Assembly: GCA_016234445.1 (NCBI GenBank)
Contig: JACRBT010000005.1
Coordinates: 1-64,000 of the forward strand
Source of the DNA: Chloroflexota bacterium
GTDB lineage: Bacteria; Chloroflexota; Dehalococcoidia; Tepidiformales; Tepidiformaceae
Length of the DNA: 64,000 nt
Direction: 5' to 3'
The translations under genes and the position numbers were made by a program. Positions within the stretch are counted from its first letter, which is position 1. Every line of letters starts with the position of its first letter. A model generated the notes under the pieces. The model saw only the letters and a program-made list of their open reading frames with translations, was not told where the DNA came from and ran no database searches. Shown piece by piece: positions 3,885-47,320 of this stretch.

Positions 3885-5060
3885 TCAGCTCACTTCGGCC
3901 CAGAACGCGCCGTCCGTCACCGAGACGGAAAGCCGGTCGCCGGCCTTCAGCTTGCGGGTGCTGCTCACCACTCTCCGGGTCTTCGCGTCCTGGACGATGG
4001 CGAACCCGCGGGCCAGGGTCGCCATCGGGTCCAGCCCCGCCAGCCGCGCCGAGACGGTTGCGAACCGCGCCCGGTCGGCGGTGCAGACGCGCTCCATCTT
4101 CGCCGCCATGTCGCGGAGGAGCCGCGCGAGGACGACGGACTGCGCCGCCGGGTCCGGGGCCGCGCGTTCGAGTTGCGTGACGAGGCCCTCCGCCCGCGAT
4201 GCCCGGCTGGCCAGCGCCTCCCGGACGACCGATGCCATCCCCCGCTCAAGGACGCGCGTCGCCCGCCAGGCGTCGGGGAGGTTCGGTGTGGCGCGTGCAG
4301 CCGCGGCGCTCGGCGTGGGGGCCCGCAAGTCGGCGACGAAGTCCACGATCGTCTCGTCGGTCTCGTGCCCCACCCCCGCGACCACCGGCACCGGGAAGGC
4401 GAAGACGGCCCTCGCGACCCGTTCGTCGTTGAAGGCGGAGAGGTCTTCGGACGCGCCCCCGCCGCGGGCGAGGATGACGAGGTCGAGCCCCGGTTCGGCC
4501 GCGAGGTCCCGGAGGGCTGCGACGATCTGCCCCGGCGCCTGGTCGCCCTGGACCATCGCCGGGGCGAGGACGATCTCGGCGACCGGCCAGCGCTGCACGA
4601 TGACGTTGAGGATGTCCTGCAACGCCGCCCCGGTGGGCGAAGTGACGACCCCGATGCGTTCGGGAAACCGCGGCAGGGGCCGTTTCCGCGACGGTTCGAA
4701 GAGCCCGTCCTTCTCCAGCCGGAGCTTCAGTTCTTCGTAGCGGGCAGCCATGAGCCCGACCCCTTCGGGCCGGACGAAGTCGGCGATGAACTGGAGTTCG
4801 CCGCGCTGGGGATAGACGCTGACCCGCCCGTGGGCGAGGACGCGGTCGCCGTCGCGGAGCCCCATCCCGGGCATGTTGTCGCGGAAGAGGACCGTGCGAA
4901 GGACGCCCTGGGGGTCCTTGAGCGAAAAGTAACGGTGCCCCGCCGCGGAGCGCGAGTAATTCGAAACCTCGCCCGCGATCCAGAGGTCGGAGAGGATCTC
5001 GTTCGCCTCCAGGACTTCCCGGAGGAAGGCGAGGAGCTGGCCGGGGGAGAGCGCCTGCAT
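3885..5060 (-). CDS. xseA: Exodeoxyribonuclease VII large subunit
   Basis: A 391-residue catalytic subunit. An N-terminal OB-fold (IAGEVSNYSRSAAGHRYFSL, about residues 25-45) binds single-stranded DNA. The nuclease core carries IGVVTSPTGAALQDILNVI and the glycine/aspartate block LVILARGGGASEDLSAFND, followed by PVVAGVGHETDETIVDFVAD. A helical region and a C-terminal beta tail (TLARGFAIV) complete the usual family layout; it is slightly shorter than the E. coli protein. The start is an ATG with AGGAG about 7 nt upstream. A TATCGT -10-like element lies about 35 nt before the start. Confidence 0.95.
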   Translation of the reverse strand: MQALSPGQLLAFLREVLEANEILSDLWIAGEVSNYSRSAAGHRYFSLKDPQGVLRTVLFRDNMPGMGLRDGDRVLAHGRVSVYPQRGELQFIADFVRPEGVGLMAARYEELKLRLEKDGLFEPSRKRPLPRFPERIGVVTSPTGAALQDILNVIVQRWPVAEIVLAPAMVQGDQAPGQIVAALRDLAAEPGLDLVILARGGGASEDLSAFNDERVARAVFAFPVPVVAGVGHETDETIVDFVADLRAPTPSAAAARATPNLPDAWRATRVLERGMASVVREALASRASRAEGLVTQLERAAPDPAAQSVVLARLLRDMAAKMERVCTADRARFATVSARLAGLDPMATLARGFAIVQDAKTRRVVSSTRKLKAGDRLSVSVTDGAFWAEVS

Positions 5061-5150
5061 CGGGGACTCCTGCCGCCGCGGTTGCGGCCCCGGGAACGAT
5101 AGCGCGAATTCCGGCGGCGCGTCAGGGGAAGCGGTGAGCGGGGAAAAACC

Positions 5151-5189
5151 CTCGGTTCCCGGCCTTGAAAACCCCTCATTCGGGCCGAG
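5151..5189 (+). promoter_or_regulatory. Leader stem-loop before the PAS-GGDEF gene
   Basis: CTCGG (5151-5155) pairs with CCGAG (5185-5189), and CCCGG (5158-5162) partly with CGGG (5181-5184), closing a 5' leader hairpin. A GCGAGGG Shine-Dalgarno sits at 5206-5212 before the ATG at 5217. It does not match the GEMM c-di-GMP riboswitch by eye. Role unproven. Confidence 0.3.
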
Positions 5190-5216
5190 AGTGAGAGTGA
5201 ATCAGCGAGGGTAGCC

Positions 5217-6137
5217 ATGAATCCCGGCGTCGACTTCTACCGCCACCTCCTCGACGACATGTTCGATGGGGTCTACTTCGTCGATCTCGATCGGCGCATC
5301 ACCTACTGGAACCGCGGGGCCGAGCGGATAACCGGCTACACGGCGGAGGAAGTGGTGGGGCGGAAGTGCGCCAACAACGTCCTCATGCACGTGGACGACT
5401 GCGGGACGCGTCTCTGCAAGACCGGCTGCCCGCTGAAAGCCACGATCGTCGACCGCCAGGCCCGCGCGGCCGAGGTGTTCCTTCACCACAAGCAGGGCCA
5501 TCGGGTGTCCGTGGCCGTGCGCGCCACGCCGATGCTCGACGACGACGGCAACGTCGTCGGCGCGGTCGAGATCTTCAGCGAAAACGGCGAGAAGATGGCC
5601 GCTATCCGCCAGGTCAAGGACCTCGAACGGACGGCCTACCTCGACGACCTCACCGGGCTGGCCAACCGCCGCTTCGCCAGGAACTTCCTCTCGGCGCGCC
5701 AGCAGGAAGCGCGAGACTTCGGCTGGCACTACGGCGTCGTGATGTGCGACATCGACGACTTCAAGCGCGTGAACGACGCCCTGGGGCACGATGCCGGGGA
5801 CGACGTCCTGCGGATGGTCGGCACCACGCTCGGTTCGGCGGTCAGGGCGAGCGACCTGGTGGCGCGCTGGGGCGGCGAGGAGTTCCTGGTGGTGCTGGCG
5901 AACGTCAGCCTGGCCGACCTCGCGCGGACAGCCGAGCGGATGCGGGTCCTCGTCGGGGAGTCGGTCTGCCGGGCAATGGGCCAGGCGGTGGCGGTGACCA
6001 TCTCCGCCGGGGCGGTATTGGCCGGGGCCGGCGAGCGCCCTGAAGACGCCGTGAAGCGTGCCGATGCCTGGCTCTACGAAGGCAAGCACGCCGGCCGCAA
6101 CCGGGTCATGGGCGAATGGCTGCGCCTGGCAGCGTAG
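5217..6137 (+). CDS. PAS-GGDEF diguanylate cyclase
   Basis: A 306-residue cytoplasmic protein with a PAS sensor (about residues 10-125, WNRGAERITGYTAEEVVG) and a GGDEF domain (about 138-305). The active-site loop is GGEEF at residues 219-223, an accepted active variant, and an inhibitory-site RxxD (RASD, 210-213) sits exactly five residues before it. It should therefore make c-di-GMP from GTP and be product-inhibited. The PAS domain carries four clustered cysteines (C51, C62, C67, C71) that could bind a metal or sense redox. There is no membrane segment. It stands alone on the plus strand, convergent with the carbonic anhydrase. Confidence 0.92.
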   Translation: MNPGVDFYRHLLDDMFDGVYFVDLDRRITYWNRGAERITGYTAEEVVGRKCANNVLMHVDDCGTRLCKTGCPLKATIVDRQARAAEVFLHHKQGHRVSVAVRATPMLDDDGNVVGAVEIFSENGEKMAAIRQVKDLERTAYLDDLTGLANRRFARNFLSARQQEARDFGWHYGVVMCDIDDFKRVNDALGHDAGDDVLRMVGTTLGSAVRASDLVARWGGEEFLVVLANVSLADLARTAERMRVLVGESVCRAMGQAVAVTISAGAVLAGAGERPEDAVKRADAWLYEGKHAGRNRVMGEWLRLAA

Positions 6138-6143
6138 CTGCGC

Positions 6144-6647
6144 TCAGCCCCCCTGCTCCGTCACCTCGCGCAGGAGCCCGGTCGCGACTTCGTAAATGAA
6201 CCCGCGCACTGGCACGTCGTGGCGCACCAGCGGCGACTCCCGGTAGATCCGAAGGTCCTCACGGACGGACTCGTCGAGGTCGCGGAAGGGGAGGAAGGCC
6301 ATGTCCCCGGCGTCGACGCCCGCCTCTTCCCGCAGCCGGCGGTGCATGTCGGCATCGGAGAACGTCGTCATCGCGCATTCGGTGTGGTGGATGACCGCCA
6401 CCTCGGTCGTGCCGACGAGCCGCTGGCTGATGGCCAGGCTGCGGAGCGCGTCCGCCATCCGGCCGCCGGCGTTCCGGATGATGTGGGCATGCCCGTAGCG
6501 AAGGCCAAGGGCGCGGATCGGGTCGATCCGGGCGTCCATGCAGAGAAGGACGGCAAGCCGGGGCGTCCCCGCCTCGCTGGGCGAAAACGTCTCCGCAAAC
6601 CTGCGGTTCGCCTCCAGCGCCAGGTCAAGCGAAGGCTCGTCAGTCAT
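6144..6647 (-). CDS. Beta-class carbonic anhydrase
   Basis: A 167-residue zinc enzyme that interconverts CO2 and bicarbonate. Zinc ligands are visible: C36 with D38 and R40 (CMDAR), H88 and C91 (HHTEC). It is the short form of the family, resembling Rv1284-like beta-carbonic anhydrases. The chosen ATG (6645-6647) begins MTDEPSLDLALEANRRF; a longer reading from 6785 adds a Cys/Arg-rich stretch without family similarity. It is convergent with the GGDEF gene, 6 bp from stop to stop. Confidence 0.88.
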   Translation of the reverse strand: MTDEPSLDLALEANRRFAETFSPSEAGTPRLAVLLCMDARIDPIRALGLRYGHAHIIRNAGGRMADALRSLAISQRLVGTTEVAVIHHTECAMTTFSDADMHRRLREEAGVDAGDMAFLPFRDLDESVREDLRIYRESPLVRHDVPVRGFIYEVATGLLREVTEQGG

Positions 6648-6732
6648 GCCCCCGAGCATCCCACGCTCCGGGGATAGCCGACAGCAGGATGGCCGGAGGG
6701 CGCGCTTGCCTCTGTCGACTACTGCGAGCGTG

Positions 6733-6918
6733 TCACGGGAAGAGCAAGAACCGAAAGAACGCCGCGACGAGGAATGTGACGGCAAACGTCCATCCGAACG
6801 CCCAGAGCGACTCCAGCACGTAGCGAAGGCACCCGCCGCCTTCTCTTCGCCCGGGGACCTTCGAATTCGCCTCCGGCTTCCTGTGGTCGCGCGGACTGCG
6901 GTCGTGCAACGGACCCAT
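6733..6918 (-). CDS. Small single-pass membrane protein, third gene of a three-gene operon
   Basis: A 61-residue protein with a charged N-terminal half (HRKPEANSKVPGRREGGG) and one C-terminal transmembrane helix (FGWTFAVTFLVAAFFRFLLF). It starts 3 bp after the stop of the 131-residue gene, which argues that it is real and translated with it. The family is not recognised. It could anchor or regulate the two upstream products of the cassette. Confidence 0.45.
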   Translation of the reverse strand: MGPLHDRSPRDHRKPEANSKVPGRREGGGCLRYVLESLWAFGWTFAVTFLVAAFFRFLLFP

Positions 6919-6921
6919 CCT

Positions 6922-7317
6922 CTACGAACCCTCCAGCTCGTTCATGACGCGGTCCGCGTCGGCCAAGAGGGCCAGCAACGGTCGCCAGGCCTCGAAGTCC
7001 AGGTCGACTGCCTCCAACGCCGGCTTTGGGACGTCGCTCTCAATTAGTAGCGCCCCGAGTATCACTCGCTCCAGGGCCGCCCGCGCCGCGTCTTCCCGCG
7101 CCTTGCCGACAGTGATCTCCGAGGGCGCTCCTTCAAGCCCAGCCTGGATCAGTATCCGGGCCCAGAGGCGGGCATGGTCGATCATTCGACTGGCGTCGAG
7201 GGACGCAGCCTGGTCGTCCTCTGGAGGCTCCACCCCGAGTTCCTCCAGCACCTCCTCCACCAGGCGCCGGATGTGGAGCGGGTCGTGGACGGTGTCGTCT
7301 GGGCTGTCACCACTCAT
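6922..7317 (-). CDS. Hypothetical protein (131 residues), second gene of the cassette operon
   Basis: An acidic, mostly helical protein (MSGDSPDDTVHDP, then LVEEVLEELGVEPPEDD and a long Ala/Leu-rich C-terminal half ending VMNELEGS). No known motif was recognised. The start ATG (7315-7317) overlaps the TGA of the upstream 76-residue gene as ATGA, indicating translational coupling. It could be a partner of the basic 76-residue protein, since opposite charges suggest a complex, but that is inference. Confidence 0.55.
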   Translation of the reverse strand: MSGDSPDDTVHDPLHIRRLVEEVLEELGVEPPEDDQAASLDASRMIDHARLWARILIQAGLEGAPSEITVGKAREDAARAALERVILGALLIESDVPKPALEAVDLDFEAWRPLLALLADADRVMNELEGS

Positions 7318-7544
7318 CGGGTTCCTCCTCGTTGGATAGTCAGGGCTGGGCTCCAGCCTGGGTGGCGGTGGGCGGTCTCCCGCCCCAACATGGCTCTGCA
7401 GATGGATCGCCAGCGCCGCCGCGCCCGGCGATGCTTCAGCTGGCGCATGGTGGTTCGAATCGGGCGGCGGTTGTGGCCGTCGTAGCGGGTGCGGCAAAAG
7501 GCGTCGTGCTGGGCGTTCAGGTCGACAAGTTGCGCTACGTCCAT
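7314..7544 (-). CDS. Small basic hypothetical protein, first gene of the cassette operon
   Basis: A 76-residue protein starting MDVAQLVDLNAQHDAFC with a strongly basic centre (RQLKHRRARRRWRSICR) that suggests nucleic-acid binding. The ATG at 7542-7544 is preceded by a strong Shine-Dalgarno (GGAGGTGAT, about 6 nt spacing), one of the best in the window. The TGA stop overlaps the next ATG. The family is not recognised. It diverges from the 398-residue gene across about 150 bp of comparatively AT-rich DNA. Confidence 0.55.
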   Translation of the reverse strand: MDVAQLVDLNAQHDAFCRTRYDGHNRRPIRTTMRQLKHRRARRRWRSICRAMLGRETAHRHPGWSPALTIQRGGTR

Positions 7545-7659
7545 AGAGAGATCACCTCCGAGTGGTGGGCGGTAACTTCCCCCACATTGTCCCCCGGGGG
7601 CTAGCTGCTGCCGAGATACCGCGGGTGGCACTTCCAGACCTCAAATAACGTACAACAGA

Positions 7660-7668
7660 TGCTAGAAT
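7660..7668 (+). promoter_or_regulatory. Extended -10 promoter upstream of the 398-residue gene
   Basis: TGCTAGAAT is a full extended -10 (TGn plus TAGAAT), 31 bp before the TTG start at 7699. No good -35 is seen at normal spacing, as is usual for extended -10 promoters. The surrounding DNA is the most AT-rich of this stretch. Confidence 0.5.
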
Positions 7669-7698
7669 AGGAAACCGGAGCGATTTTGTAGGAGTAAC

Positions 7699-8895
7699 TT
7701 GTTGAAATCGACGTCGGCCCGGCTCTCTCTGACGGCCCAGTTGGGGTGGTGGCCTCGATGGGTGGACATCCCAAACGTTGAGGAACGACTTGGCCAACAT
7801 CCCGCCGATCCACAGGGTTTCGGCCTGAAACTCCTGATACTGCTGGAGTCCGCCGACGCGCGGGCGGGTAGCCCACAGTTGTGGGCGGCGACCTACCGGG
7901 AACTTGCGGCGGCAACGGCCAACACTTCGCTCGCCACTCCCGGTCGGTCTATCAAGCAGGCGATCGACCGGCTTTCGAAGGCCGAGACCGTGACGCGGCG
8001 GTTCGAGCCCGGAGTGGGTGTGACGCTCGAGCTCCCTCCTCGCCCGTCAGGCCCGCCCGCGAAGCGGCTCCACATCCCAACCGCCCTCTGGCGCGAAGGC
8101 TGGTTCCCCGTGCTCGATCGAGACGCATTGCGGCTGCTGCTGCACTTGCCGCTCTCGCCGCGTCAGGGGCCGCTCTTGGTGCGGGAGGATGAGTTTGTCG
8201 GCACGGAGAAAGGTTGGCAGGGGCTCGCCGCGGTGGGGCTGGTCTCGAGAGTTCGTAACGGCCGCAAGCGCATGGCGCTGTGGAATCCGCAGGGGCTGCG
8301 CACGGCACCCCCGGCACGGTCGCGACAGACGCCCTCCCCGGTGGGCGCTACGGTCTCGCCTGACACCCTGGCCTTCGACATGTTCGGCTGGCTGCGACGG
8401 GGAATCGACTCCAGGAGACTGGCGTTCGGACCCGCGGTGCTTGTCACCGACCTCTCTGGAGGCTGCAGACAGGGGATGGAAGCTGTCGAGGCGTGGCGTC
8501 GCAAGCTTCCACAGATGCCCCCCGCCAGTAGTGCTGGGGGGTCCCAGGGTCGCCTCCTCGCACCCGGTGTCGTGCTCGCCACAGGTAGCCTGGCGCGGAG
8601 TCTCGATGACATGCCCACGGGAGTGACAGCAGTGTTGGTGGAAGCCGGGGGAGGAAAGTGGCAGGTCACCTCCCTCGTCCATCATTTCCTCACCTGGCCA
8701 GCCCGGCCGCCCGCGCGCCAGACGCAACAGCCGACACCGCAGGAGAGTCTCAACCCAGCGCAGTGGGCCGCTCTCCTCGGAGCTCTGGAGAATGCCCAGA
8801 ACTCTGCCGGGGACGTCGCGGTGGTGGCCTTCCTTCGAGCCATTCGAGACTCCCTGACCAGCGTCGCCCAAGGTGGCTCCGCCACAGGGAACTAG
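7699..8895 (+). CDS. Uncharacterised 398-residue protein with winged-helix-like segments
   Basis: It starts at TTG with AGGAG 4 nt upstream (a second TTG follows at 7702). An N-terminal region (about residues 40-110, FGLKLLILLESADAR to IKQAIDRLSKAETVTRRF) reads like a winged helix, and a second such region lies at about 140-195 (LLLHLPLSPRQG to VGLVSRVRNGRKRM). The C-terminal half has no recognisable motif. Two tandem winged helices recall plasmid initiators, but no family was recognised. Third-position GC looks lower than in neighbours. It diverges from the three-gene minus-strand operon, so the four genes may form one acquired unit. Confidence 0.6.
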   Translation: MLKSTSARLSLTAQLGWWPRWVDIPNVEERLGQHPADPQGFGLKLLILLESADARAGSPQLWAATYRELAAATANTSLATPGRSIKQAIDRLSKAETVTRRFEPGVGVTLELPPRPSGPPAKRLHIPTALWREGWFPVLDRDALRLLLHLPLSPRQGPLLVREDEFVGTEKGWQGLAAVGLVSRVRNGRKRMALWNPQGLRTAPPARSRQTPSPVGATVSPDTLAFDMFGWLRRGIDSRRLAFGPAVLVTDLSGGCRQGMEAVEAWRRKLPQMPPASSAGGSQGRLLAPGVVLATGSLARSLDDMPTGVTAVLVEAGGGKWQVTSLVHHFLTWPARPPARQTQQPTPQESLNPAQWAALLGALENAQNSAGDVAVVAFLRAIRDSLTSVAQGGSATGN

Positions 8896-8924
8896 ATGCG
8901 CAGGCTACCCGCGGCCCCACACCC

Positions 8925-8945
8925 ACAGCCGACAGCCGACAGCCC
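8925..8945. repeat. Heptamer array R1 (ACAGCCG x3)
   Basis: Three tandem 7-mers (ACAGCCG, ACAGCCG, ACAGCCC) end exactly at the first base of the efp stop codon (TAG, read on the minus strand at 8945-8947). The unit is the reverse complement of the TCGGCTG class seen at 26078 and 28748. Confidence 0.6.
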
Positions 8946-9505
8946 TACGTCACCCGCTCGATGTAGGCGCCCGAGTCCGTGTTCACGCGGATCTTCGTGC
9001 CTTCGTCGACGAAGAGGGGGACGTTGACCACCAGGCCGGTGTCGGTCTTCGCGGGCTTCGTCCCGCCGGTCGCGGTGTCGCCCTTGAAGCCGGGGTCCGT
9101 TTCGACCACCACCATCTCCACCGTCATCGGCAGTTCGATCCCGATGACTTCGTCGCCGTACATCACCAGCTGGCAGAGGTTGTTTTCCTTCAGGTACTTG
9201 CTGGCGTCGCCGACGCGCTCGTGGCCGACCGGGATCTGCTCGTAGTTCTCGGTGTTCATGAAGTAGTAGAACTGGTCGTCGCTGTAGAGGTACTGCATCT
9301 CCCGCGTCTCGACCCGCGCCCGGGGCCACTTCGTCCCCGCCTGGAAGGTCTGTTCGAAGATCGCGCCGCTGCGGGCGTCACGGAACTTGATCCGGACCTG
9401 GGCCGAGCCGCGGCCGGTCTTGATGTGGTTGTATTCGAGGACCGTCATGAGCTTGCCATCCAGTTCGATGGTCGCGCCCTTCTTCAATTCGCCCGTGGAA
9501 ATCAC
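8945..9505 (-). CDS. efp: Elongation factor P
   Basis: A 186-residue three-domain EF-P that rescues ribosomes stalled on proline stretches. The N-terminal KOW-like domain ends with the tip loop KTGRGSAQ; the residue that aligns with modified K34 of E. coli is R32. The OB domains follow (YLYSDDQFYYFMNTENYEQ; GLVVNVPLFVDEGTKIRVNT), and the C-terminus ends YIERVT. It lies 3 bp downstream of the peptidase stop and is probably co-transcribed with it. The UAG stop abuts a heptamer array. Confidence 0.96.
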   Translation of the reverse strand: MISTGELKKGATIELDGKLMTVLEYNHIKTGRGSAQVRIKFRDARSGAIFEQTFQAGTKWPRARVETREMQYLYSDDQFYYFMNTENYEQIPVGHERVGDASKYLKENNLCQLVMYGDEVIGIELPMTVEMVVVETDPGFKGDTATGGTKPAKTDTGLVVNVPLFVDEGTKIRVNTDSGAYIERVT

Positions 9506-9508
9506 GTC

Positions 9509-10639
9509 TCACACTCCTGGTGGGGTCAGTTTCGTCGCGTGGCTGAGCACGCGGGCCTTGCCGTTTTCGAGCACCACGACGTCCTCGATGCGGACGCCTC
9601 CCCAGCCGGGGCTGTAGATGCCGGGTTCGATGGTAAACACCATGCCCTCTTCAAGGGTATCCGTGGAGGTCTCTCCGAGATACGGCGCCTCGTGGACCTC
9701 CAGCCCGACGCCGTGGCCGAGGCCGTGCCCGAACCGCTCGCCGTGGCCGCGGCGGGCGATGACCTCCGCCGCCAGCCGGTGGGCGTCGCGGCCTGACATC
9801 CCCGGTTCCACGCCCTCGATGGCGGCGCGCTGGGCTTCGAAAACGATCGCGTAGATCTCGCGAAACTTCGCATCAGGCTCACCGGCGACGATGGTCCGGG
9901 TGAGGTCGCTGCAGTAGCCGCCGTAGAGCGCGCCCATGTCGATGACGACCGCCGCGCCCGGTTCCACGGGGACGGCCCGGGGGCTGGCGTGGGGCATCGC
10001 CCCCCAGGGTCCAGCGGCGACGATGGTCTCGAACGAGATGCCGCTGCCCCCGAGTCGCCGCACCTCGCGTTCGACCGCGGCGGCGATGGCGGTCTCTTCC
10101 TGCCCCGGCGCCAGCGTCGCGGCGACGGCTTCGAAGGCCCCGTCGGCGATGTCGATTGCCCGCTGGAGGAGCGCCATCTCCTCGGCGTCCTTGCGCTTTC
10201 GGAGCCCTTCGACCAGCGGCGGCGCGGGCACGAGCTTGGGCCGGTCGCCCGACGGGAGTTCCTGCACGGCCGCGTCCAGGGAGACGAACTCGCCGTAGGT
10301 CATGTCGGCGCGCGACAGCCCGAGCCTCTTCCCCGCCATGCCGGTTTCGCCGAGGAGGGCGCCGAGCCAGCGTTTGGGGTCGCGCCCGACGGTCTTGAAG
10401 AGCCGGAAGCCGCGGGGGACGCACTCGCGCTCGCCCTGTTCGATGTAGCGGAAGTCGGTCGCGAGGACGGCGTGATCCTTCGTCACGACGACGATGCCGG
10501 ACGACCCCGTGAAGCCGGAGACGTACTGGCGGTTCTGGGAATGGCGGCCGAAGACGTCGTCCACGGGGCAGGAGATGTAGAGCCCGTCGAGCCCCGCTTC
10601 GGAGATGGCGGCCCGCAGCCGTTCCAGCCGGTTCGTCAT
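9509..10639 (-). CDS. pepP: Xaa-Pro aminopeptidase / M24 family peptidase
   Basis: A 376-residue metallopeptidase with a creatinase-like N-terminal domain (LYISCPVDDVFGRHSQNRQY) and the pita-bread catalytic domain. Metal ligands are visible: two aspartates in VIDMGALYGGYCSDLTRT, the histidine in RFGHGLGHGVGLEVHE, a glutamate in FTIEPGIY and the last glutamate in GVRIEDVVVL. It removes N-terminal residues before proline. It lies directly upstream of efp and downstream of aroQ on the same strand, an order often seen in Gram-positive-type genomes. Confidence 0.92.
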   Translation of the reverse strand: MTNRLERLRAAISEAGLDGLYISCPVDDVFGRHSQNRQYVSGFTGSSGIVVVTKDHAVLATDFRYIEQGERECVPRGFRLFKTVGRDPKRWLGALLGETGMAGKRLGLSRADMTYGEFVSLDAAVQELPSGDRPKLVPAPPLVEGLRKRKDAEEMALLQRAIDIADGAFEAVAATLAPGQEETAIAAAVEREVRRLGGSGISFETIVAAGPWGAMPHASPRAVPVEPGAAVVIDMGALYGGYCSDLTRTIVAGEPDAKFREIYAIVFEAQRAAIEGVEPGMSGRDAHRLAAEVIARRGHGERFGHGLGHGVGLEVHEAPYLGETSTDTLEEGMVFTIEPGIYSPGWGGVRIEDVVVLENGKARVLSHATKLTPPGV

Positions 10640-10670
10640 GGTCCTCGCCTGTACCGCCTGCCGCGGCCGC

Positions 10671-11135
10671 TCAGGGATTCGCCGCCGGGGACCCGAGATG
10701 GTCCAGCAGCAAGTGGGTCGCGACAGTGTAGCCCTGCCGCCCGAGGCCGGTCACCTGCCCCAGGCAGACCGGGGCAATCATCGAAACGTGGCGGAAGCCC
10801 TCGCGGGCGTGGGTGTTAGAGATGTGGACCTCGACCGCGGGCAGGTTGACGGCCTCGATGGCGTCGTGGAGGGCGACCGACGTGTGCGTGTAGGCGCCGG
10901 CGTTGATGACGATGCCGTCCGCGACCTTCCGGTTCTCGTGGAGGAAGTCGATCAGCGCGCCCTCGTGGTTGCTCTGGAAGCAGAGCACCGCCGCCCCCCG
11001 CGCTCCCGCGGCCGCGGCGACGTCGGCCTCGATGTCGAGCAGCGTCGTGGTCCCGTAGACCTCGGGCTTGCGTTCGCCGAGGAGGTTCAGGTTCGGCCCG
11101 TGGACCAGGAGGATGACCGGGTGCTCCGCGCTCAC
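10671..11135 (-). CDS. aroQ: Type II 3-dehydroquinate dehydratase
   Basis: A 154-residue dodecameric shikimate-pathway enzyme (3-dehydroquinate to 3-dehydroshikimate). Signatures: [10 protein letters not shown], the tyrosine of the lid loop (EVYGTTTL), [15 protein letters not shown] and [15 protein letters not shown]. The GTG start (11133-11135) overlaps the TGA of xerC as GTGA, so the two are translationally coupled; a longer upstream reading is an Ala/Arg-rich artefact. Confidence 0.94.
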
Positions 11136-12094
11136 GACGCGTCTCTCCGCCGCTGCTTCCGCCGCGGCCCTTCGAGCGCCTGCTCCGCGACCTGCTCCCA
11201 CGCCGCCAGCGTCACCTCTGCCTGCCGCGCCTGGCTGACGTGGGTGTAGATCTGCGTCGTGTTCGCCGAACTGTGCCCGAGGAGATCCTGGACGATCCGG
11301 AGGTCGGCGCCGCCGTCGAGGAGGTGGGTCGCGAACGAATGGCGAAGGAGGTGGGGGTGGACGTCTTCGGCTATCCCGGCCGCGGTCGCGTGGTGCTTGA
11401 TCATCGTCTGGACGGAGCGAGCCGTGAGCCGGTTGCCGAAGCGGTTGAGGAAGAGTGCCGGTTCCGCGCCCGTGGCGAGCGCCCCACGGCCATCGCGGAG
11501 GTAGGCCTCGATCGCCTGCGCCGCCGGTTCCCCGAAGAGGACCACGCGTTCCTTCGCGCCCTTGCCGCGCACCAGTGTCCGCCCTTCGTCGAGGTCCAGG
11601 GAGGCTGTGTCGAGCGCCACCAGTTCGGAGATCCGGAGGCCGGCACCGTAAAGCAGTTCAAGCATCGCCCGGTCGCGGAGCCCCTGGGGCGTGTCCAGCG
11701 GTGGCGCCGCGAGGAGCGCGCTCACCAGGGCCGGGTCCAGCACCTTCGGCAGGCGCTTCGGCCGCTTCGGGAGGGCGATGCCGTAGAGGAGATCGCGCTC
11801 GGTCGCCTCCTGCTGGTGGAGATAGCGGTAGAAGCCGTGGACCGTGCTCGTGCGCCTGGTGATCGAGGCCGCGACCATGCCGCCTTCGCGCAGTCCGCCG
11901 AGGTATTCGCGGAAGACCTGGCGATTCACGGCCAGCGGCTCGCGCTTCGTCTCCCTGCAATAGGCGAGGAAGTGGCCAATGTCGTGGCGATAGTTGCGGA
12001 TGGTGTAGGCCGAGCGGTTGCCGATGCCCGCGAGCTCCCGCAGGTAGGCATCGAGGAACGCCTCAGCCGTCTTGTGCGCGGGGACGCTCGCCAT
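11132..12094 (-). CDS. xerC: Tyrosine recombinase XerC/XerD
   Basis: A 320-residue site-specific recombinase for chromosome-dimer resolution. The N-terminal SAM-like core-binding domain begins [11 protein letters not shown], and the C-terminal catalytic domain has the R-K-H-R-H-Y set: [52 protein letters not shown]. The length is the Xer standard. The ATG at 12094 ([13 protein letters not shown]) is preferred over one four codons upstream. It is coupled with aroQ. There is no sign that it is a phage integrase: no att-like duplications or phage genes lie nearby. Confidence 0.93.
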
Positions 12095-12118: not shown

Positions 12119-12190
12119 GCTAAGGACTACGGACTTAGGACTTAGGACGAAGGACTTAGCGCTCGGACCTCGGACCTCGGACCTCGGAAC
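12119..12190. repeat. Heptamer array R2 (GGACTTA / CGGACCT units)
   Basis: Degenerate 7-mers (GGACTTA-type, then CGGACCT repeated) fill the gap between xerC and the SDR gene and end next to the SDR TAG stop at 12194-12196. Same family as 24244, 26160 and 28858. Confidence 0.6.
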
Positions 12191-12964: not shown

Positions 12965-13020
12965 GCCGGTACCCTCCGCGTGTTCGGGCGGATTGTAGCG
13001 GAGTACCGGGTACCGAGTCC

Positions 13021-13069
13021 CTCAGTCCTCAGTCCTCAGTCCTCAGTCCTCAGTCCTCAGTCCTCAGTC
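13021..13069. repeat. Heptamer array R3 (CTCAGTC x7)
   Basis: Seven perfect tandem copies of CTCAGTC, followed by CTCGTCC and then the TAG stop of topA (read on the minus strand at 13077-13079). It lies downstream of topA and upstream of the SDR gene, whose -10 abuts it. The unit count is a candidate for strain-to-strain length variation. Confidence 0.8.
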
Positions 13070-13076
13070 CTCGTCC

Positions 13077-24243: not shown

Positions 24244-24313
24244 GAGTCCCGAGTCCCGAGTCCCGAGTCCCGAGTCCCGAGTCCCGAGTCCTCAGTCCTC
24301 AGTCCTCAGTCCT
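24244..24313. repeat. Heptamer array R4 (GAGTCCC x6, GAGTCCT, CAGTCCT x3)
   Basis: Ten consecutive 7-mers keep phase while the unit switches from GAGTCCC to CAGTCCT. It lies between the bidirectional promoter and the enoyl-CoA hydratase ATG, so it would be in the leader of that mRNA. Confidence 0.8.
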
Positions 24314-24383
24314 CGTCACTCCTGTTGCCAGCGGCGCCGCGCCGGGGCACGATGGCGCGACCAACCCCGCGGCGGAGGCCCCG

Positions 24384-26077: not shown

Positions 26078-26235
26078 CCGTCGGCTGTCGGCTGTCGGGC
26101 TATTAGCTGTTAGCTATTAGCTATTAGCTGCTGGAGAGGCATCGGCTGAAGGCCGACCGGTACTCGGACCTCGGACCTCGGGACCTCGGGACCCGGGACT
26201 CGGTACCCGGGACTCGGGACTCGGTACTCGGTACT
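26078..26235. repeat. Composite heptamer array R5 (three unit classes in order)
   Basis: After the SDR stop come TCGGCTG-type units (about 26078-26100), then TTAGCTR-type units (about 26100-26131), a non-repetitive spacer, then CGGACCT/GGGACTC/GGTACTC-type units (about 26160-26235). The same three classes occur in the same order at 28748-28905. Confidence 0.75.
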
Positions 26236-28747: not shown

Positions 28748-28905
28748 TGGCTGTCGGCTGTCGGCGGGGAGCTGTTAGCTATTAGCTGTTAGCTATTAGC
28801 TGTTAGTTGGCAGCCCAAAGGAGTTTACACGGTACCGCGTAGCCGCTACTGTTGTTCGGACCTCGGACCTCGGACCTCGGGACTCAGGACTCAGGACTCG
28901 GTACT
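28748..28905. repeat. Composite heptamer array R6 (three unit classes in order)
   Basis: TCGGCTG-type units (28748-28764), TTAGCTR-type units (about 28770-28806), a spacer (28807-28857), then CGGACCT and GGACTCA units (28858-28905). Same class order as R5. It fills the gap between the ABC ATPase stop and the HTH gene. Confidence 0.75.
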
Positions 28906-46142: not shown

Positions 46143-47282
46143 ATGAAGCAGAAGAGTGTCGCCATCGTCGGCGCCGCCGAGACCACTCAGATGGGCATCA
46201 TCCCCGACATGTCGGTCATCGAACTCCACGCCGACGCCGCCCTCAACGCCATGGCCGACTGCGGCCTCAAGCCCTCCGACATCGACGGCGTCGCCACCGC
46301 GGGAGAATCCCCCGTCGCCGTCGCCCACCACCTCGGCATCACCCCCACCTACGTCGACGGCACCTCCGTCGGCGGCTGTTCCTTCATGCTCCACGTCCGC
46401 CACGCCGCCGCGGCGATCAACGAAGGCCTCGCGACAACCGTCCTCATCACTCACGGCGAAAGCGGGCGTTCGCGTGTCGGCGCCGGCCGTTTCGGTCCTG
46501 CCGCCGCAAGCCTCCAGGGCCAGTTCGAAGCGCCCTACGGCGCCAGCGGCCCGCCGAGCATGTTCACCATCCCCGTCCTCCGCTACATGAAGGAACTCGG
46601 CCTCACCCACGAACAGCTCGCCATGGTTGCGGTCGTCCAGCGCGAATGGGCGGGGATGAACCCCCGCGCCTCCTTCCGAGACCCGATCACGGTCGAAGAC
46701 GTCCTCAACTCGCGGATGATCGCCTACCCCTTCCGCCTCCTCGAATGCTGCCTGGTGACCGACGGCGGCGGCGCCCTCATCCTCACCTCCGCCAGCCGGG
46801 CGAAGGACTTCCCCACGAAGCCCGTCTACATCCTTGGCACCGGCGAGAGCACCGAGACCCCCATGGTCAGCCAGATGGAAGACTTCACCTCGTCGAAGGC
46901 GTTCCGCGTGAGCGGCAAGAAGGCCTTCGACGAAGCCGGCATCTCGCACGCCGACGTCGACCACCTGATGATCTACGACGCCTTCGCCCACCTGCCGATT
47001 TACGCCCTCGAGGACCTCGGCTTCTGCAAGCGGGGCGAGGCAGCCGGGTTCATCTGGGAAGGCAACACTCGCCCCGGCGGCAAGCTCCCCCTGAACACGA
47101 ACGGCGGCGGCCTCAGCTACATGCACTCGGGCATGTACGGCATGTACGCCCTCCAGGAGAGCGTCCGCCAGCTTCGCGGCACCGCCCCCGCCCAGGTCCC
47201 CGGCGCGAAGATCAGCATCTCCCACGGCGTCGGCGGCATGTTCGCCGCCTCCGGCACCATCATCATGACGAACGAGAAATGA
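46143..47282 (+). CDS. Thiolase-like acetyl-CoA acetyltransferase (SCPx/Ltp2 type)
   Basis: A 379-residue thiolase-fold protein of the sterol carrier/SCPx-like type. It starts VAIVGAAETTQMG and has a conserved VGGCSFMLHVRHAA segment. The late histidine region (GHGV-type) is SHGVGGMFAASGTIIM. In DUF35-associated pairs these enzymes act as retro-aldolases or thiolases on steroid side chains. The stop codon TGA is the last base pair before heptamer array R7. The gene starts 2 bp after the DUF35 stop. Confidence 0.88.
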   Translation: MKQKSVAIVGAAETTQMGIIPDMSVIELHADAALNAMADCGLKPSDIDGVATAGESPVAVAHHLGITPTYVDGTSVGGCSFMLHVRHAAAAINEGLATTVLITHGESGRSRVGAGRFGPAAASLQGQFEAPYGASGPPSMFTIPVLRYMKELGLTHEQLAMVAVVQREWAGMNPRASFRDPITVEDVLNSRMIAYPFRLLECCLVTDGGGALILTSASRAKDFPTKPVYILGTGESTETPMVSQMEDFTSSKAFRVSGKKAFDEAGISHADVDHLMIYDAFAHLPIYALEDLGFCKRGEAAGFIWEGNTRPGGKLPLNTNGGGLSYMHSGMYGMYALQESVRQLRGTAPAQVPGAKISISHGVGGMFAASGTIIMTNEK

Positions 47283-47308
47283 GTGCTGAGTGCTGAGTGC
47301 TGAGTGCT
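47281..47308. repeat. Heptamer array R7 (GAGTGCT x4), left flank of four-helix-bundle cassette
   Basis: Four exact GAGTGCT units begin at the second base of the thiolase TGA stop. The last GA of the array with the following GAGG supplies a Shine-Dalgarno for the four-helix-bundle TTG at 47321. Confidence 0.85.
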
Positions 47309-47320
47309 GAGAGGCCCTGA

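Follow-up and report, generated by a model that had tools for sequence, protein, structure and literature searches.

How far a group of neighbouring genes that resemble nothing described should be read as one functional unit is the question raised by four reading frames (p1 to p4) located between efp and xseA in a Chloroflexota genome. An earlier note, made from the letters alone, had taken them for a self-contained acquired cassette, compatible with a regulatory or defence-type system. In this work, the four frames were analyzed within the window (i.e., the whole 64,000-nt stretch of DNA) and compared with related genomes.

Layout of the Locus

All four open reading frames were located as the earlier note had them, together with the 4-nt overlap of p1 and p2, a strong Shine-Dalgarno sequence and an extended -10 element:

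p1, 7314..7544, minus strand: 76-aa basic protein, the founding member of a small family, with YDGHNRRPIRTTMRQLKHRRARRRW as core motif
p2, 6922..7317, minus strand: 131-aa acidic protein, whose start overlaps the p1 stop by 4 nt
p3, 6733..6918, minus strand: 61-aa ORF with a hydrophobic C-terminal segment, a candidate gene whose reality is uncertain
p4, 7699..8895, plus strand: 398-aa divergent ORF with a TTG start, a probable (modelled) tandem winged-helix N-terminal half, predicted at about residues 34-205, and an orphan C-terminal half
Shine-Dalgarno sequence GGAGGTGATC of p1, 7550..7559, minus strand
Divergent intergenic region between p1 and p4, 7545..7698: 154 nt, GC about 0.55 (computed over 7545-7701)
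Extended -10 element TGCTAGAAT, 7660-7668, facing p4, read by a regular expression
efp-xseA interval, 5061..8944: 3.9 kb with a GGDEF gene, a carbonic anhydrase gene, p3-p2-p1 and p4

The mechanical ORF list gave p1 and p2 longer upstream starts; the lengths stated here follow the starts chosen in the earlier note. The p1 protein carries 18 K/R against 5 D/E residues and p2 12 against 29. The gap between p2 and p3 is 3 nt, and residues 42-60 of p3 form a hydrophobic 19-residue segment with a mean Kyte-Doolittle value of 1.8. A stricter consensus promoter scan, unlike the regular-expression reading of TGCTAGAAT, found no promoter. The efp, GGDEF and carbonic anhydrase genes were identified by Pfam matches, and the genes called xseA, pepP, aroQ, xerC, rsfS and mnmA here are taken to be these.

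Coding Signal and Base Composition

It should be stressed that the length of an ORF alone is no evidence of a gene here, because a 407-aa antisense ORF overlaps xseA. A codon-usage score, for which 31 ORFs of the window served as training set, was compared with base shuffles to give z values. The true frame was the best of six for all four ORFs (z of 2.5 for p1, 6.1 for p2, 3.7 for p3 and 7.2 for p4), and the neighbours scored higher (carbonic anhydrase 9.7, efp 12.4, GGDEF 14.5). The in-frame codon signal of p1-p4 exceeds chance. The reduced third-position GC reported earlier was confirmed, with GC3 of 0.75-0.81 in p1-p4 versus 0.88-0.94 in seven neighbours (the carbonic anhydrase and GGDEF genes, efp, pepP, aroQ, xerC and xseA).

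The efp-xseA Interval as a Variable Site

The efp gene was found in 33 of the 38 family genomes, and the loci of the own genome and 29 relatives were compared. An island should be absent from the same site in relatives, and this is what was observed: xseA lies directly after efp, with a gap below 130 bp, in 23 of the relatives' 29 loci, as against 3.9 kb in the window, and none of the 29 loci, of which three are cut by a contig end near efp, matched p1-p4 at E 1e-3. Other genes occupy the site in five relatives (G003, G016, G024, G030 and G027; L007, L010, L011, L012 and L024). These are a glyoxalase-family gene within 1.1 kb (G003), a nucleotidyltransferase gene (Aminoglyc_resit, E 2e-7) with a sub-threshold glyoxalase-like ORF within 1.5 kb (G016), an ORF with a sub-threshold DUF2171 match within 0.5 kb (G024), and a carbonic anhydrase gene oriented towards efp (G030 and G027). 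By eye, the G030 contig starts in the apparent xseA start; the G027 contig ends within the carbonic anhydrase gene, and that of G008 ends at efp. What lies between efp and xseA in the family is variable cargo, to which p1-p4 belong here.

The carbonic anhydrase gene of the window (6144-6647) and the one next to efp in G030 (L037:133-618), 78% identical, have opposite orientations, which suggests a local inversion or a separate insertion; the gene in G027 is likewise opposite to that of the window.

The proposal that the material is acquired is thus supported by the efp-xseA adjacency in most relatives, the differing genes in the five others and the lower GC3, and furthermore by the lack of any p4 match among the 98 relatives searched, many of which are incomplete. 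No tRNA was found in the window, and no integrase gene within the efp-xseA interval. The xerC-like recombinase gene at 11132-12088 is regarded as a host gene and not as a sign of mobility, because it is syntenic in G008 and G010, where it likewise stands beside aroQ-pepP-efp.

Repeated Sequences

Perfect heptamer tandem arrays are strongly enriched in the window: at period 7 there are 11 with 2.6 copies or more, versus none in 20 block shuffles, and the other periods from 4 to 12 have none to three. Heptamer arrays lie at:

8925-8944
12162-12188
13020-13072
24244-24314
26080-26181
28856-28899
47280-47311

Heptamer satellites are known from Chloroflexus aurantiacus (PMC6749651). Moreover, a 24-nt imperfect direct repeat (75%) flanks the four frames at 6662-6685 and 8920-8943; it contains the 9-mer GCCGACAGC, of which the window has 7 occurrences (2.1 expected). 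A heptamer-like run related to it was seen by eye after efp in G016. The 24-nt repeat was considered as an att site and dropped, since it is probably one of the common heptamer repeats of the window.

Database Searches and the Predicted Fold of p4

The statement that none of the four products could be placed in a family held in profile searches, as no convincing match was obtained in Pfam, NCBIfam, PHROGs or PADLOC. In Pfam and PADLOC no family appeared for p1-p4 up to E 5, and PADLOC gave no match up to E 1 for five related proteins, so that of the suggested defence-type role there is no sign in either set. PDB sequence searches returned nothing below E 0.1. Several weak matches were taken as chance, i.e., PHROGs 37606 (E 0.01) and 8607 (E 0.034) for p1, and an NCBIfam VirB11 match (E 0.07) and a PHROG phage head maturation protease (E 0.035) for p2. 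A C4 antisense target of Rfam at 7930-7988 was sub-threshold (19.2 bits against a gathering score of 46.7).

Among genomes, the p2 matches in G029, G018 and G053 (E 0.004-0.008) were partial and not accepted. Searches of 38 family and 275 class genomes yielded no credible relative for p3; the matches were short in both G023 (E 0.007) and in G148 (E 6e-4). A search for p4 in 99 genomes, of which one is the own genome and 58 have a completeness of 90% or more and a contamination of 5% or less, gave the self-match only. Scans of genome and viral contigs with exact short peptide patterns, which distant relatives would escape, had no match, and neither 72,556 plasmids nor 50,697 phages yielded a relative at E <= 1.

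The full-length model of p4 reached a pLDDT of 38.8, and residues 34-207 modelled alone 53.7. The model predicts three helices and a wing, followed by a helix-strand-helix-strand-strand unit. A Foldseek search with this fragment gave no match at E <= 0.001 (best E 0.3). Winged-helix proteins, including some of the ArsR, MarR and TubR types, could be aligned to residues 133-205 with Z values of 4.7-6.3; the best match was SrnR (7p6f; Z 6.3, rmsd 3.5, 68 residues). According to the aligner's own note Z values below 8 are common, and it is the second domain only that is well tested in this way. Pfam gave p4 no sequence match to a winged-helix family. Judged by these low-confidence models, p4 is likely a winged-helix protein. 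It would share the helix-helix-helix-wing order of residues 34-205 with known regulators and initiators (MarR, ArsR/SmtB, TubR, plasmid Rep), from which it differs in having no sequence-family match and in its additional orphan C-terminal half of about 190 residues.

The p1 Family

Homologs of p1 amount to seven copies in six genomes, the own genome (G000) included. These Arg-rich proteins of 57-82 aa share the core motif GYDGHNRRPxxTTMRxLRxRRxRRRW, and the columns invariant in all seven copies are the start residue, HNR and R-x-x-RRR. As a single query, p1 matched 25 of 343 class genomes at E <= 0.01. Clear matches were those in G017 (E 3.8e-13), G092 (4.6e-7), G019 (5.5e-7) and G008 (6.9e-6), and the second place in the own genome, C4, was found at E 1.2e-11 with p1 alone; the remaining 20 genomes lay between E 4.9e-4 and 0.0083. 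The G062 copy (E 0.003 by single sequence) was accepted because profile A1, of which it is not a member, gives it 4.8e-14. Matches of profiles A1 and A5 to their own member sequences arise by construction and were excluded from the evidence.

At E <= 0.01 the p1 profile matched five of the 38 family genomes. Four of these matches are clear, which is a patchy spread, and in genus g7 one of five genomes has a clear p1. In the class there were eight of 393 genomes at E <= 0.001, six of them clear, and in the phylum six of 400, where only G000 and G017, both profile members, were clear; both of these searches scored no more than 14-15 first-look candidates in each genome. A genome-contig scan with profile A2 returned one locus, identical in place to that of G017, and the viral-contig scan had no match; both use exact short peptide patterns, which distant relatives would escape. 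An SD-like sequence was seen by eye before six of the seven copies. Among six copies pN was below pS in 11 of 15 pairs (one tie, three reversed), with synonymous sites near saturation.

Weak p1 matches (E > 1e-4) other than G062 were not accepted. Seven weak places were checked for HNR or NRRP in frames below 250 residues; an HNRRP-bearing frame was present in G360 only, and G564 and G536 fell outside this check, their matched frames exceeding 250 residues. The G360 place (G360:C12:25051-25143; L069, L071) has a profile E of 4.3e-4, one internal stop and HNRRP in a 64-residue frame, and is possibly a distant or degraded relative.

In the scans made here, the p1 family is unmatched by Pfam, NCBIfam, PHROGs or PADLOC and, as far as its sequences indicate, would be a new small family of probably nucleic-acid-binding proteins.

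Neighbourhoods of the p1 Copies

The arrangement of p1 with partners recurs, the p2- and p4-like partners being putative homologs only. Judged by eye, four of the seven p1 copies have no partner (own C4, G017, G092 and G062). The C4 copy (L054:4287-4460, 57 aa) stands alone downstream of a 556-aa ORF, presumably a cytochrome c biogenesis gene. Among the six copies other than that of the window, two have an overlapping acidic partner (G019 and G008), one a divergent p4-like ORF (G019) and none a p3 counterpart.

In G019, the ORF after p1 overlaps it by 8 nt and encodes 122 aa (8 K/R versus 26 D/E). As in the window, p1 also faces a divergent ORF, here of 236 aa, which is putatively homologous to p4 and matches MarR_2 (E 0.002) and GntR (E 0.004) below threshold. 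The neighbours are zinc peptidase and molybdopterin oxidoreductase genes. In G008, the overlap is 11 nt, the following ORF encodes 186 aa (23 K/R versus 33 D/E), and no p4-like frame was seen; the neighbours differ from those in G019 and are presumably rsfS- and mnmA-like genes. A stretch directly upstream of the G008 p1-like gene (L057:4180-4380) has 36% GC in a locus of 65% GC and is possibly foreign DNA.

The similarity of the partners was assessed against 500 shuffles each. For p2 and the G019 partner, 7 shuffles reached the local and 5 the global score, i.e., the similarity is weak. The comparison of p2 with the G008 partner was at chance (182 local, 89 global) and that of the G019 and G008 partners nearly so (196 and 29). 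No significant similarity was found between p4 and the 236-aa ORF of G019 (99 and 89), and with residues 30-215 of p4 the counts were 40 and 36.

No other genome was found to hold the quartet, the nearest case being G019, with p1 and putative p2 and p4 analogues and without p3. The self-contained four-gene unit of the earlier note is not supported, because only p1 clearly recurs, and mostly without the others. That note had named the single occurrence of homologs as evidence against its unit, and this is in large part what the solitary p1 copies represent.

Weighing the Explanations

Locally, p1-p4 are lineage-restricted orphan genes at an efp-xseA site that holds differing extra genes, and the only clearly recurring element is p1, with its invariant HNR and its R-x-x-RRR run. 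The most economical functional reading is a regulatory one, which we infer from charge, overlap and arrangement. According to it, p1 would bind nucleic acid; p2, acidic and translationally coupled, would be an accessory or masking partner of p1; and p4, on the opposite strand, would bind the 154-nt intergenic region and control both directions. The p3 frame, if a real gene, may be a late addition. The p1 unit is considered loose and not a fixed system, because its partners vary among genomes. The explanation as a whole (lineage-restricted orphan genes with p1 as core, p2 as partner and p4 as controller in a loose unit) is held tentatively, and we judge it slightly less probable than an even chance.

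The four genes may also be independent ones that adjoin by chance, with p1 a stand-alone family, p4 a separate orphan regulator, and p2 and p3 partly spurious or newborn. The solitary copies of p1, the lack of credible homologs of p2, p3 and p4 in the searches and the frequency of spurious long ORFs at this GC are in line with it. However, an ORF overlaps the end of p1 in three genomes, with a divergent ORF as well in G019, and all four frames show in-frame codon bias; we regard this explanation as rather unlikely. Less likely still is that p1 and p2 form a two-gene conflict module (toxin-antitoxin-like or defence), one protein toxic and the other neutralising, with p4 as regulator. Like Type II toxin-antitoxin genes, p1 and p2 are two small coupled genes with overlapping frames and opposite charges, a regulator-like gene stands divergently, and the spread is patchy, p1 with an overlapping acidic ORF being present also in G019 and G008. 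In contrast to that type, neither protein has a convincing match to a toxin, antitoxin or other family in Pfam, NCBIfam, PHROGs or PADLOC, p1 is often solitary (4/7 copies), and no homology can be recognised between the partners of different genomes.

Plasmid initiators commonly carry tandem winged helices, and p4 might accordingly be an initiator-like replication protein in the debris of an integrated plasmid or phage, with p1 and p2 as accessory genes. The lower GC3 and the presence of the plasmid protein TubR among the weak structural matches of p4 would fit. Against this stand the lack of relatives of p4, and likewise of its G019 analogue, in the plasmid and phage sets mentioned above, the empty pattern-based viral scans and the interval free of an integrase gene. 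Moreover, iterons are absent, because all 13 direct-repeat families in 5000-11000 have just two copies. This origin is thus judged improbable.

The preferred reading, that of a loose set of lineage-restricted genes, may be compared with the dark-matter islands known from archaea, whose genes have a narrow spread (PMC4158269). Both comprise short uncharacterised genes of narrow range, with a possible membrane protein, beside housekeeping genes. The present locus is different in that it is bacterial (Chloroflexota) and has four genes only, none of which is recognisable as a virus, mobile or defence gene. It has the appearance of an ordinary island with lineage-specific genes, and the findings alone reveal no new mechanism. 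A stricter version, in which p1 defines a new small family that binds nucleic acid and is the fixed core of a compact module whose acidic partner and divergent winged-helix controller are swapped between genomes, has a low probability in our view; if true, Chloroflexota would have a small module of a new type, with a regulatory or conflict role. From a cassette of entirely unknown genes there nevertheless emerges a single object that can be tested, the conserved family of small Arg-rich proteins, and the efp-xseA interval is now marked as a place where this family of bacteria carries variable cargo.
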